A stretch of DNA of 42,869 bases from an uncultured Nocardioidaceae bacterium (GTDB taxonomy: Bacteria; Actinomycetota; Actinomycetes; Propionibacteriales; Nocardioidaceae): positions 1 through 42,869 of the forward strand of contig CADCUI010000027.1 of NCBI GenBank assembly GCA_902805845.1, given 5' to 3'. Both the position numbers and the translations under genes were made by a program. The notes under the pieces were generated by a model that worked only from the letters and a program-made list of their open reading frames with translations, did not search any database and was not told the DNA's origin. Every line of letters starts with the position of its first letter. Position 1 is the stretch's first letter. This document shows, piece after piece, positions 30,202-37,398 of the stretch.

Positions 30202-31638
30202 TCACTGGTTGTCGTCGGTCGGCACCTCACGGAGCCGTTTGTGGTGGTCGGGGCGGACCTCCCTGAGCCGGCCCATGAACTCCGCGGCCCAAGCGGCCAC
30301 GTCGTGCTCCTTGACCGTCTTTCGCATGGCGCGCATCCGCCGCGAGCGGTCGCGCGGCTGGCCGTCCATGGCCTCGAGCAGCGCGGTCTTCATCCCGTTG
30401 ATGTCGTAGGGGTTGATGAGGAACGCCTGCTTCAGCTCGTCAGCAGCGCCGGCGAACTCCGAGAGCACGAGCGCTCCGTCGTTGTCCACGCGGCAGGCGA
30501 CGTACTCCTTGGCGACCAGGTTCATGCCGTCGCGCAGCGGCGTGACCACCATGATGTCGGCGGCGCGGAACATCGCCGCCATCTCCTCCCGGGGGAAGGA
30601 GTTGTGCAGGTAGGAGATCGCGGGATGCCCCAGCCGTCCGTAGTCGCCGTTGATGCGCCCCACCAGCATGTCGATCTCGTCGCGGAGCCGGCGGTACTCG
30701 TCGACCCGCTCGCGCGACGGCGTGGCGACCTGGAGGAAGACCGCGTCCTCGAGGTCGACACGGCCGTCGGCCAGGAGCTCGCCGAAGGCGCGCAGCCGCG
30801 TGTAGATGCCCTTGGTGTAGTCGAGCCGGTCGACGCCGAGCAGGAGATGTCGGGGATTGCCCAGCTGCTCACGGATCTCTCGGGCCCGGGCGACGACAGC
30901 GTCGGTCTGGGCCATCTCGGCCAGGCCGGCGAAGTCGATGGAGATGGGGAAGGCGTCGGCCTCGACGGTGCGGCCGTCGGCGAGGTAGACGAGGTCGCGG
31001 TGGGTCTTGTGCCCGACCCGTTGGCGCACCAGCCGGACGAAGTTCTGCGCGCCGCCGGGGCGCTGGAAGCCGACGAGGTCCGCGCCGAGCAGGCCCTCGA
31101 GGATCTGGCGCCGCCACGGCAGCTGCACGAAGAGCTCGGTGGGCGGGAACGGGATGTGGAGGAAGAACCCGATGCGGAGGTCGGGACGGGCTTCGCGCAG
31201 CATCGCGGGCACCAGCTGCAGCTGGTAGTCGTGGACCCACACCAGGGCGTTCTCCGCGGCGAGGGCCGCGGCTCGCTCCGCGAACCGGCGATTGACGGTG
31301 ACGTAGGCGTCCCACCACTCGCGGTGGAAGGACGGCTTCGCGACCACGTCGTGGTACAGCGGCCACAGCGTGCCGTTGGAGAAGCCCTCGTAGAACTCCT
31401 CGATCTCCGCCGCCGACAGCGGCACCGGCACCAGCAGCATGCCGTTCTGGTCGAGCGGCTCGTCAGGGCCGTCCGGGCCACCGTCCCAGCCGACCCAGGC
31501 GCCGTCGTACTCCTGCATGATGGGCTCGATGGCGGTGACGAGCCCTCCGGGCGAGCGCCGCCACGAGACCGCGCCGTCCTCGTCGACCACCCGGTCGACC
31601 GGCAGCCGGTTGGCGACGACCACCAGGTCGTACGTCAT
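30202..31638 (-). CDS. otsA: Trehalose-6-phosphate synthase
   Basis: 478 residues, family GT20. The start is [18 protein letters not shown], followed by [30 protein letters not shown], and [18 protein letters not shown], which binds UDP-glucose, and later [17 protein letters not shown]. It joins UDP-glucose and glucose-6-phosphate. I chose the ATG at 31638, with GGAG nine bases upstream. A GTG at 31665 is possible and would suit a leaderless message from TAGGCT at about 31677-31672. The partner phosphatase otsB is on the other strand, beyond two genes. Confidence 0.93.
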
Positions 31639-31740
31639 GGGTGCCGGCTCCGAGTCCCCGTTCACCTCGTCAGCCTATCTGCGCGTCCAGGAGCCTCGAA
31701 GGGCGGCTTCCTGAAGCGCGGCAGCGTCGGCGTGGAGCGA

Positions 31741-32618: not shown

Positions 32619-32684
32619 GTCGACGCATGGCGCGTCCCTCGACGTGCCGGTGCCGCCGGGTCGAGGCTCTGGTTGGGTGGGGCC

Positions 32685-33539
32685 ATGGACCTGCGCAGCC
32701 CTCGCGCCCGTCAGCGGTACGACGACCTGGTCGCAGGCGCCGGCCAGGGCGTGGTCTGCCTCGACTTCGACGGCGTCCTCGCACCCATCGTCGACGACCC
32801 TGCCCGGGCGCACATCCACCCCGAGGCGCCCGACGTCCTCGTCGCGCTGACAGCGCAGTTCCGGGCGGTGGCCGTCGTGACCGGCCGGCCGGCACGGCAG
32901 GCAGTCAGCCTCGGTCACCTCGACGAGGTGGGGGCCCGAGCCAAGGACCACGGCCGGGACCTTCTCGTGCTGGGCCAGTACGGCCACGAGCGATGGTCCG
33001 CCTCCACCGACCGGGTGGTGGCGCCCAGGCCGCCCCGGGGGCTGGCGAGCCTGGCTGCGGAGCTCCCCGAGCTCCTGCGCCGCGAAGGGCTCGAGGACGC
33101 CCATCTGGAGCAGAAGAGCCTGGCGGTCGCAGTGCACACCCGACGGCTCCCCGACCCGCAAGGGGCGCTCGAGCGGCTGGCGCCGGTGCTGCAGCGGGCA
33201 GCAGCCGCCCACGGGCTCACGCTCGAGCCGGGGCGCATGGTGCTCGAGGCGCGGGCGCCCGGCATGAACAAGGGCAACGCCGTCCGCACCCTGCAGAAGG
33301 AGCACCACGCCGACGCGATGGTCTTCGTCGGTGACGACCTCGGCGACGTCGAGGCGTTCGAGGCGATCGCGGCGCTGCGCCGTGGCGGCATGGTCGGGCT
33401 GCTGGTGTGCTCGGGCTCGGAGGAGCAGCGGGCTCTCGTCGACCTCGCCGACGTCGTCGTGGACGGTCCCGACGGTGTCATGCAGTTCCTGCGGCAGCTG
33501 GCCACGGACGCCGGCGACCACGCGGATCCGCCGTCCTGA
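32685..33539 (+). CDS. otsB: Trehalose-6-phosphate phosphatase
   Basis: 284 residues of the HAD superfamily. Motif I is DFDGVLAPIV with nucleophile Asp27 and Asp29; VVTGRPARQA is motif II. LVLGQYGHERW is typical of trehalose phosphatases, and VGDDLGDVEAFEA is motif IV. It completes trehalose synthesis started by otsA. The ATG at 32685 is preferred over a TTG 12 bases earlier. It is followed by the riboswitch of thrC. Confidence 0.92.
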   Translation: MDLRSPRARQRYDDLVAGAGQGVVCLDFDGVLAPIVDDPARAHIHPEAPDVLVALTAQFRAVAVVTGRPARQAVSLGHLDEVGARAKDHGRDLLVLGQYGHERWSASTDRVVAPRPPRGLASLAAELPELLRREGLEDAHLEQKSLAVAVHTRRLPDPQGALERLAPVLQRAAAAHGLTLEPGRMVLEARAPGMNKGNAVRTLQKEHHADAMVFVGDDLGDVEAFEAIAALRRGGMVGLLVCSGSEEQRALVDLADVVVDGPDGVMQFLRQLATDAGDHADPPS

Positions 33540-33600
33540 CCTGTCTCACCTGACGACCCCGGGTGCGGGGTCCGTGCGGCCTTCCGTAGGCTGGGCGCTG

Positions 33601-33772
33601 CTCATCGAGAGGGGCAGAGGGACACGGCCCGCTGAAGCCCCGGCAACCCGCCACAGCCGTCACCGCTCGGACGAGTGATGACGCCTCCGAGCAGCCCGGA
33701 ACGTAGCCCGGGCTGCTGGTGGTCACGGTGCCACGTCCGTCCCGGCGCGAAGGCCGCCTCGGGGAAGATGAG
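33601..33772 (+). promoter_or_regulatory. SAM-I (S-box) type riboswitch upstream of thrC
   Basis: The P1 strands are CTCATC (33601-33606) and GATGAG (33767-33772). The core follows the S-box pattern: AGAGGGGCAGAGGGAC, ACGGCCC, GCTGAAGCCCCGGCAACC with the k-turn and pseudoknot region, and GGTGCCACGTCC on the 3' side. P3 (CCGTCACC at 33657 with GGTCACGG at 33721) is enlarged by an inner hairpin AGCAGCCCGG / CCGGGCTGCT (33690-33717). The aptamer is about 172 nt, longer than usual. It ends directly before the AAGGAGGA ribosome site of thrC. Confidence 0.85.
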
Positions 33773-33786
33773 AAGGAGGACTCCTT
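33773..33786 (+). promoter_or_regulatory. Hairpin over the thrC ribosome site and start
   Basis: AAGGA (33773-33777) and TCCTT (33782-33786) can pair around the loop GGAC. The 5' arm is the ribosome site and the 3' arm contains the first two bases of the TTG start. It follows the last base of riboswitch P1 (33772) directly. It may couple aptamer folding to translation initiation. Confidence 0.5.
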
Positions 33787-35095
33787 GAGCGCACCAGTCG
33801 TCGACCACTCCGTCCCGGCAGCGCCGGCGGCCCCGTCAGGGCCCGCGGGGCCCGCCCCTCTGCGCCCCGGCGCCTTCGGCAACGCAACCGGCCTCGTGTG
33901 CCGCGAGTGCCGCAGCACGCAGCCGCTGGGCCCGTTCTACGCCTGCGGGGAGTGCTTCGGCCCCCTCGAGGTCGGCTACGACTTCCCCGTCGTGACGCGG
34001 GAGCAGATCGAGGCGGGTCCGAAGAACATCTGGCGCTACCAGCCACTGCTCCCGGTGCCGGCGGACATCACCGGCAGCCGCAGCACCGAGCCGGGGTTCA
34101 CCCGGCTGGTCCGCGCCGACAACCTCGGCCGCGAGCTCGGCGTCAGGGACCTGTGGGTCAAGGACGACTCGGGCAACCCCACGCACTCGTTCAAGGACCG
34201 CGTCGTGGCCGTCGCCCTGTCCGCCGCCCGCGAGCTGGGTTCCACGGTGTTCGCATGTCCCTCCACGGGCAACCTGGCCAACGCGGTCGCGGCAGCCGGC
34301 GCCCGGGCGGGGATCCGCACGGTTGTCTTCATCCCTCACGACCTCGAGCCGGCGAAGGTCCAGATGACCGCGGTCTACGGCGGCTCGCTGGTGGCGGTGC
34401 GCGGGTCCTACGACGACGTGAACCGGCTCGCTTCCGAGATCGCCGGCGAGGAGGACGGCTGGGCCTTCGTCAACGTCAACGTGCGGCCCTACTACGCCGA
34501 GGGCTCGAAGACGCTGGCGTTCGAGATCGCCGAGCAGCTCGGGTGGCGCATCCCTGCCCAGGTCGTCGTGCCGGTCGCCAGCGGCTCGCAGCTGACGAAG
34601 ATCGACAAGGGATTCCAGGAGCTGATCGCCCTCGGCCTGGTCGAGGACACGCCGTACAGGATCTTCGGCGCCCAGGCGGAGGGCTGCTCGCCGGTCAGCG
34701 CGGCCTTCAAGTCCGACCACGACGTCGTACGACCGGTCAAGCCGGCCACGATCGCGAAGTCGTTGGCCATCGGCAACCCGGCCGACGGCCCCTACGTCCT
34801 CGACGTCGCCCGCCGCACCGGCGGCGCCGTCGAGGACGTCTCCGACGACGAGGTCCGCGAGGGCATCCTGCTGCTGGCGCGGACGGAGGGCATCTTCGCC
34901 GAGACGGCGGGCGGCGTGACCGTCGGCACCCTCAAGAAGCTCGTCGAGACCGGACAGCTGGACCCCGAGCGCGAGACCGTGGTGCTCAACACCGGCGACG
35001 GCCTGAAGACCCTTGACGCCATCGCGTCGCGCGTCGCGCCCACCGCCACCATCGACCCGTCGTACTCCGACTTCCGCAGCCTCGGGCTGCACTGA
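33785..35095 (+). CDS. thrC: Threonine synthase
   Basis: 436 residues from a TTG at 33785. A zinc-ribbon-like N-terminus has Cys39, Cys42, Cys54 and Cys57. The PLP lysine is Lys137 in NPTHSFKDRVV, and STGNLANAVAAAGARAGIRT binds phosphate. It matches the long actinobacterial threonine synthase that converts O-phosphohomoserine to threonine. The SAM riboswitch in front, and the sulfur-carrier gene 16 bases behind, tie it to sulfur amino acid supply. A related PLP beta/gamma-replacement activity cannot be excluded. Confidence 0.92.
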   Translation: MSAPVVDHSVPAAPAAPSGPAGPAPLRPGAFGNATGLVCRECRSTQPLGPFYACGECFGPLEVGYDFPVVTREQIEAGPKNIWRYQPLLPVPADITGSRSTEPGFTRLVRADNLGRELGVRDLWVKDDSGNPTHSFKDRVVAVALSAARELGSTVFACPSTGNLANAVAAAGARAGIRTVVFIPHDLEPAKVQMTAVYGGSLVAVRGSYDDVNRLASEIAGEEDGWAFVNVNVRPYYAEGSKTLAFEIAEQLGWRIPAQVVVPVASGSQLTKIDKGFQELIALGLVEDTPYRIFGAQAEGCSPVSAAFKSDHDVVRPVKPATIAKSLAIGNPADGPYVLDVARRTGGAVEDVSDDEVREGILLLARTEGIFAETAGGVTVGTLKKLVETGQLDPERETVVLNTGDGLKTLDAIASRVAPTATIDPSYSDFRSLGLH

Positions 35096-35111
35096 CCCCC
35101 CAGGAGCCGCA

Positions 35112-35387
35112 GTGACTGTCTCCGTGCGCGTGCCCACGATCCTCCGGACCTACACCGGCGGCGCCTCCGAGGTGACCGCCGAGGGCGACACGCTGGGCGC
35201 CGTGCTCGAGGAGCTCGACGTCAGCTACTCGGGGATCAAGGGCCGGATCCTCGACGAGTCGGGCGAGCTCCGGCGGTTCGTCAACGTCTACGTCGGCAAC
35301 GATGACGTGCGGTTCCTCGACGGGCTCGCCACCCCTACTCCGGACGGGACCAAGATCTCCGTCATCCCCGCGGTCGCCGGCGGCTGA
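35112..35387 (+). CDS. ThiS/MoaD-like sulfur carrier protein (CysO-like)
   Basis: 91 residues from a GTG at 35112, with AGGAG seven bases upstream. The ubiquitin-like fold is indicated by VRVPTILRTYTGGASEVTAE, LRRFVNVYVGNDDVRFLDGL and the C-terminal VIPAVAGG. The terminal Gly-Gly would be thiocarboxylated by an MoeB/ThiF-type enzyme. In mycobacteria CysO donates sulfur to O-phosphoserine in cysteine synthesis. It is the second gene of the riboswitch-controlled operon; whether it serves cysteine, methionine or another product is open. Confidence 0.87.
   Translation: MTVSVRVPTILRTYTGGASEVTAEGDTLGAVLEELDVSYSGIKGRILDESGELRRFVNVYVGNDDVRFLDGLATPTPDGTKISVIPAVAGG

Positions 35388-35583: not shown

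Positions 35584-37398
<1,815 letters not shown>

Follow-up and report, generated by a model that had tools for sequence, protein, structure and literature searches.

The described systems closest to the locus considered here, a predicted S-adenosylmethionine (SAM) riboswitch followed by a threonine-synthase-like gene and a sulfur-carrier gene on a 42,869-nucleotide (nt) stretch of DNA from an uncultured Nocardioidaceae bacterium (contig CADCUI010000027.1; the whole stretch is called the window), are bacterial routes to cysteine and homocysteine. CysO-CysM-Mec is the cysteine route of Mycobacterium tuberculosis, and in the HcyS route of Wolinella succinogenes the partner enzyme is MetY, of fold type I, which acts on O-acetylhomoserine. 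In Streptomyces, the homocysteine synthase MetM was identified by Hasebe et al. 2024 (Appl Environ Microbiol 90:e01247-24), as cited in the available part of PMC12172450, where MetM is described as converting O-phosphohomoserine to homocysteine, a SAM riboswitch is placed upstream of S. albulus metM, and metO is named as a sulfur-carrier gene of S. albulus. The GenBank accession cited there for S. albulus MetM is BHXC01000007. The same part of that source (PMC12172450, mSystems 2025) mentions MetM homologues in cyanobacteria and a sulfur-carrier-like gene beside thrC in Microcystis, and doubts that the Microcystis relative can fully take the part of MetM in vivo. Among the literature titles and abstracts searched, no description of this arrangement was found besides PMC12172450, and the arrangement is absent from the available part of PMC12452182.

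We read the window locus, with a probability of about 0.88 (lowered from 0.9 after a shuffle control on the Shine-Dalgarno overlap described below), as a putative metM-metO operon that would make homocysteine under a translational SAM-I OFF switch. As far as the available account of S. albulus MetM/MetO goes (PMC12172450), the two systems share a threonine-synthase-like enzyme and an upstream SAM riboswitch, and the window differs in its TTG start, in a longer riboswitch P3 and in belonging to a genome that is Nocardioidaceae-like by its nearest named matches. The window holds a ThrC-like protein distinct from the genome's own ThrC, an upstream SAM riboswitch and a carrier gene. Fifteen named Streptomyces orthologues are 67-72% identical to the window MetM; a match to the SAM riboswitch model RF00162 stands upstream in all 15 of these loci (20 of 20 when five further loci are counted), and the carrier gene lies 3-128 nt downstream of MetM in 15 of 15. 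Because of the Streptomyces account and the constant presence of riboswitch and carrier in the Streptomyces loci, the window system can be regarded as a well-supported new example of the kind described in Streptomyces and hence as a member of it.

The two other routes are more distant. The window system resembles CysO-CysM-Mec in the nearest structure of the carrier in the PDB (3dwg_C), in a pyridoxal phosphate (PLP) partner with PF00291, and in the presence of MoeZ and a JAB protein in the genome; however, the window partner is ThrC-like and not CysM-like, the mec-cysO-cysM cluster lies separately on contig C72, and the window carrier adjoins metM instead of cysM and mec. The HcyS route has in common the supply of protein-thiocarboxylate sulfur to homocysteine, whereas the window partner carries PF00291 and no acyl-homoserine synthesis gene (MetX/MetA) was detectable. 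Sulfur transfer to a methionine precursor, in the manner of CysO or HcyS, was one of two explanations offered by the sequence-only reading that preceded this analysis. It is supported, since both the genes of the locus and their control agree with the MetM route to homocysteine.

The riboswitch and its genes

The SAM-I (S-box) aptamer is a 176-nt match to RF00162 at window positions 33599-33774 on the forward strand, with 57.6 bits against a gathering score of 44.4 (E 7.1e-11; cmscan, Rfam 15), and it is the sole match in the window above its gathering score. The alignment spans the full model (1-108), S-box core included. P1 consists of 6 base pairs between the 5' arm CUCAUC (33601-33606) and the 3' arm GAUGAG (33767-33772), while P3 holds 66 bases where the model holds 5. 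The 3' arm runs without a gap into the Shine-Dalgarno sequence AAGGAGG (33773-33779, forward strand), which shares the last 2 nt of the aptamer match and is followed by the TTG start at 33785. A whole-genome search returned this single RF00162 match, at the metM-type gene.

The metM-type gene (33785-35095, forward strand), whose TTG start was picked from the position of the Shine-Dalgarno sequence, encodes a threonine-synthase-like PLP enzyme of 436 residues that scores 271.1 bits against TIGR00260 thrC (cut-off 167.1) and carries PF00291. Its PLP lysine is K137 in NPTHSFKDRV, and four cysteines (C39, C42, C54, C57) lie near the N-terminus. Sixteen bases separate its stop from the start of the metO-type gene (35112-35387, forward strand, GTG start), which encodes a ThiS/MoaD-like sulfur carrier of 91 residues with a PF02597 (ThiS) match of 50.6 bits and the C-terminus PAVAGG, ending in Gly-Gly. 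Among PDB structures the carrier scores highest against 3dwg_C (103 bits), a deposition named cfp10A that we take to be M. tuberculosis CysO, and next against 4n6e of the ThiS/MoaD family. A SAM-I-like aptamer with matching P1 arms and an S-box core, and a Gly-Gly carrier 16 bases past a thrC-like gene, had been proposed from the sequence alone; both are borne out, the former by a significant covariance-model match that covers 33601-33772, the latter by the gap and the PF02597 match.

The arrangement of leader, thrC-like gene and MoaD-like gene also recurs across the class, for which 148 genomes (the window's own and 147 others), each at least 90% complete, were compared. Orthologues of the window protein number 106, its own genome included; the others are 63-76% identical to it and all score at least 415 bits, whereas the best non-orthologue match reaches 245 bits and 40% identity. 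Every one of the 106 orthologues has an RF00162 match upstream on its strand, at a distance of 3-91 nt from the aligned start in 104 cases, and in 79 of the 106 loci MetM is succeeded by a ThiS-like gene at a median gap of about 5 nt. Conversely, under stricter search filters, by which weak matches are lost, RF00162 matches were found in 111 of the 148 genomes (above cut-off in 109), and 106 of the 112 matches above cut-off stand at a MetM-type gene.

Nine of the 115 listed RF00162 matches lie away from MetM, six of them above cut-off. Two of these precede sulfonate-type ABC ATPases (L237, L241), one a peroxiredoxin (L240), two a GNAT-like protein as read by eye (L239, L242), and one an unassigned reading frame (L238); a match below cut-off (L243) precedes an acetate-CoA ligase. 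A metagenome-assembled genome labelled Spirochaetaceae (L227) carries an actinobacterial-looking riboswitch and a MetM of 74% identity, perhaps through a binning error.

Relation to canonical threonine synthase and to MetX

The source genome has a canonical ThrC in a hom-thrC-thrB cluster on a separate contig (C2), with 288 bits against TIGR00260 and 447 bits against M. tuberculosis ThrC (2d1f), and the window MetM is 37% identical to it. Canonical ThrC (at least 412 bits) occurs in 145 of the 148 genomes, including all 106 with a MetM-type gene, so that in this sample the window-type gene is always additional to canonical ThrC; the three genomes without canonical ThrC (G091, G102, G121) also have no window-type gene. 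The two proteins share the family, the PLP lysine motif and a TIGR00260 score above cut-off. On the other hand, MetM forms its own orthologous group, has an extra N-terminal segment with four cysteines and stands outside a hom-thrC-thrB cluster.

The active sites differ as well, with positions counted on an alignment with ThrC of known structure. The PLP motif NPTGSFKDRG of the ThrC structures becomes NPT(H/N)SFKDRV, with the valine in 103 of 104 orthologues. Thermus thermophilus ThrC residues T88, R160 and N188, which we take to be contacts of the substrate phosphate, are replaced by L164, Y237 and S266 in the window MetM and in 104 of 104 orthologues. The Q of EGQKT becomes S241 (104 of 104), and EP(A/G)S becomes ETAG. 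Among the 104 complete orthologues, L164, Y237, S241, S266 and T374, together with C39, C42, C54 and C57, are invariant. The genome has a canonical ThrC besides the window enzyme, which is very probably not its threonine synthase and probably not a threonine synthase at all. Identity with canonical ThrC was rejected on the neighbourhood, as hom-thrC-thrB lies elsewhere, and on the residue changes. The name "threonine synthase operon", given in the sequence-only reading, is not supported, since canonical thrC lies elsewhere both in this genome and in all 106 genomes with the MetM-type gene; the accompanying puzzle that SAM control would be the wrong way round for threonine synthesis falls away if the enzyme, as is very probable, has another function.

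The methionine pathway of the source genome gives a setting for such a function. No MetX was detectable there (best match 29.5 bits), and no MetA. The thrB gene of the hom-thrC-thrB cluster on C2 scores 189 bits (cut-off 168), MoeZ, encoded on C26, reaches 689.3 bits (cut-off 647), C72 carries a mec-cysO-cysM cluster, and a MetB-like protein matches NF005871 (649.5 bits, cut-off 513).

Across the 148 genomes, MetM and MetX occur together in 47, MetM alone in 59, MetX alone in 38 and neither in 4 (Fisher p 1.1e-7, uncorrected for relatedness). MetX was called at 300 bits or more (85 genomes), a line drawn where the scores drop from 313.6 to 168.6 bits, as neither the genomes nor the controls reached the curated cut-off of 500. 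When genera are scored by the majority of their members, 28 have MetM only, 22 both, 18 MetX only and 3 neither. Of 42 genomes without MetM, 38 have MetX and one more has MetA. Matches to PF04204 (MetA) occur in three genomes, of which only that in G069 is strong (434.5 bits; G057 166, G075 133), and none of the three is among the 59 MetM-only genomes. As for the four with neither gene, G069 has MetA, a weak, fragmentary SAM match lies at a contig edge in G071, the assembly of G007 has 970 contigs and 6% contamination, and G010 is unexplained. This is the distribution of alternative homocysteine routes, MetM on the one side and MetX or MetA on the other.

P1, the ribosome site and the start codon

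An in-frame start codon is found 6-18 nt past P1 in 104 of the 106 leaders (median 13), too close for a terminator to fit in between. A transcription terminator as expression platform was set aside on this spacing, which is a better argument than the terminator scan of 33400-33850, where none was found and where none is expected in shuffles either. For 99 of 104 leaders the best anti-Shine-Dalgarno pairing has its first base within the aptamer end, against 72.5 in shuffles, and for 103 it starts there or no more than 3 nt away, against 91.5. When the region is counted back from the start codon, the figures are 93 and 102 of 104, against 62.8 and 85.3. In the window the overlap is 2 nt. Local folding favours OFF over the leaders as a whole, though not in the window leader: averaged over the leaders, the unpaired probability of the Shine-Dalgarno sequence is 0.50 with P1 formed and 0.62 with its 3' arm free, and it is lower with P1 in 81 of 104.

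The short distance from P1 to the start codon and the reach of the ribosome site into the aptamer end make a putative translational OFF switch the best reading. An ON switch, which the sequence-only reading had offered as its other explanation, was set aside owing to the spacing of P1, Shine-Dalgarno sequence and start; the start 6-18 nt past P1 (104 of 106) and the Shine-Dalgarno sequence beginning in the aptamer end (99 of 104) argue against it.

In the mechanism that we infer, from SAM binding and OFF control through the chemistry of MetM and MetO to the Mec step, P1 would be open when SAM is scarce, leaving the Shine-Dalgarno sequence at its end free, and both proteins would be made. MoeZ would adenylate and sulfurate the Gly-Gly end of MetO; MetM would eliminate phosphate from the O-phosphohomoserine made by ThrB and add the thiocarboxylate sulfur at C-gamma; and a Mec-type JAB hydrolase would release homocysteine. 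When SAM is plentiful, P1 would close, the ribosome site would be covered and homocysteine synthesis would stop.

Between P1 and the start codon, 59 of 104 leaders hold a stretch of 4 nt or more that is complementary to the P1 3' arm, where shuffles give 22.9, in a comparison made after the pattern had been seen and on related sequences; in the window leader the complement is only 3 nt long. Possible hairpins of this kind, such as GAGG with CCUC, are seen in L075, L097 and L113. In many lineages a short anti-P1 hairpin may link the binding of SAM to the ribosome site.

Sulfur supply and competing explanations

Several points weigh against the metM-metO reading. In S. albulus metO reportedly lies next to metM and would serve as its sulfur donor, the three pocket residues are presumed contacts of the substrate phosphate, and the likeness to S. 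albulus MetM was judged on other Streptomyces orthologues standing in for the S. albulus protein. The source genome is 96% complete, so MetX could sit in the missing part, and MetX is also present in 47 of the 106 MetM genomes. Two loci of one genus (L120, L122) have weak RF00162 matches, of 46.8 and 49.1 bits, 304-317 nt away. The overlap of Shine-Dalgarno sequence and P1 is above chance, yet much of it comes from the short spacing alone. In the window leader itself the local fold goes the opposite way, the Shine-Dalgarno sequence being unpaired at 0.47 with P1 formed and at 0.37 with the 3' arm free; in whole-leader folds (ViennaRNA) the P1-forced and the best structure lie within 0.6 kcal/mol of each other, and the Shine-Dalgarno sequence is partly paired in both. 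Finally, the available part of PMC12172450 reports threonine synthase activity for the Microcystis relative, which is 51.6% identical to MetM.

A further point of this kind concerns the carrier. A following carrier gene is lacking in 27 of the 106 loci, two of which (L133, L137) are cut by a contig end; 25 of 104 intact loci therefore have riboswitch and MetM and no adjacent carrier within the roughly 0.6-1.5 kb inspected downstream (L009, L010, L014, L016, L017, L019, L021, L022, L025, L114, L117, L119, L120, L122-L128, L130, L131, L134-L136). In L009 a cold-shock-like protein, as read by eye, follows MetM. These loci favour the possibility that MetM takes free sulfide and that the carrier is only co-regulated, serving, for example, another thiolation pathway; the resemblance of the window carrier to CysO and the use of Na2S to mimic MetM activity (in the available part of PMC12172450) point the same way. 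We consider this unlikely, as the carrier adjoins MetM in 79 of 106 loci at so short a median gap, the source genome encodes both MoeZ and a Mec-type protein, and MetX occurs more often in genomes whose MetM locus lacks a neighbouring carrier (17 of 25 loci, against 30 of 79 with carrier; p 0.011, uncorrected for relatedness). Carrier-less loci may borrow CysO or use sulfide.

Where the carrier is present, its end varies. One or two residues, mostly Cys and otherwise Cys-Ala or Ala, follow the Gly-Gly in 16 of 79 carriers from six families (L004, L006, L011, L013, L020, L067, L072, L078, L084, L087, L089, L098, L103, L105, L107, L129). Such carriers would need trimming before activation, perhaps by Mec.

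Another explanation leaves homocysteine mainly to a MetB-like enzyme acting on O-phosphohomoserine and has MetM/MetO make some other SAM-related sulfur compound. Plant-type cystathionine gamma-synthase acts on O-phosphohomoserine, and the MetB-like protein of the source genome, present though no MetX or MetA was found there, might do as plants do, which is a further point against assigning homocysteine to MetM. The source genome has no other SAM riboswitch, however, MetM stands in for MetX across genomes, and the available part of PMC12172450 cites MetM as the Streptomyces homocysteine synthase; this explanation is accordingly held to be very improbable. Likewise very improbable is that the gene encodes an additional threonine synthase whose riboswitch is turned ON by SAM, so that high SAM would divert O-phosphohomoserine to threonine: the TIGR00260 thrC cut-off is exceeded, the window fold shows no lower Shine-Dalgarno accessibility with P1 formed and the activity of the cyanobacterial relative (available part of PMC12172450) would fit, but canonical thrC lies in hom-thrC-thrB and accompanies MetM in all 106 genomes, residues at the presumed pocket positions are replaced, MetM and MetX are complementary, and the close spacing of P1 and start in 104 of 106 leaders and a Shine-Dalgarno overlap above shuffles speak against an ON switch.

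Around the locus, the open reading frames at 30202-31665 (reverse strand) and 32673-33539 (forward strand), the latter just upstream of the riboswitch, look by eye like otsA and otsB (trehalose-6-phosphate synthase and phosphatase). Downstream, an inverted repeat at 35595-35650, CTAGCACTC-N9-GAGTG, precedes a GroEL-like reading frame (35638-37398) and is CIRCE-like by eye, judged against what we take to be the CIRCE consensus.

To the published account this analysis adds the coupling of riboswitch and gene in 106 of 106 loci, the complementarity with MetX/MetA, the distances separating P1, ribosome site and start codon, and the carrier variants, although these may overlap with Hasebe et al. 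2024. We propose tentatively, at somewhat less than even odds, a joint claim: that MetM is the sole visible homocysteine route in 59 of the 148 genomes (those with no MetX or MetA; other routes were not searched, a limit that weighs against the metM-metO reading too), together with the carrier variants and the anti-P1 hairpin. For annotation, a SAM-I riboswitch directly upstream, L, Y and S at the three pocket positions and usually a carrier downstream would mark the MetM-type gene. The protein called "threonine synthase" by TIGR00260 is very probably, in a large share of the class, an enzyme of the methionine pathway; if true, this would explain both the apparent absence of the first step to homocysteine in many genomes and the presence of a SAM riboswitch on a gene annotated as thrC.

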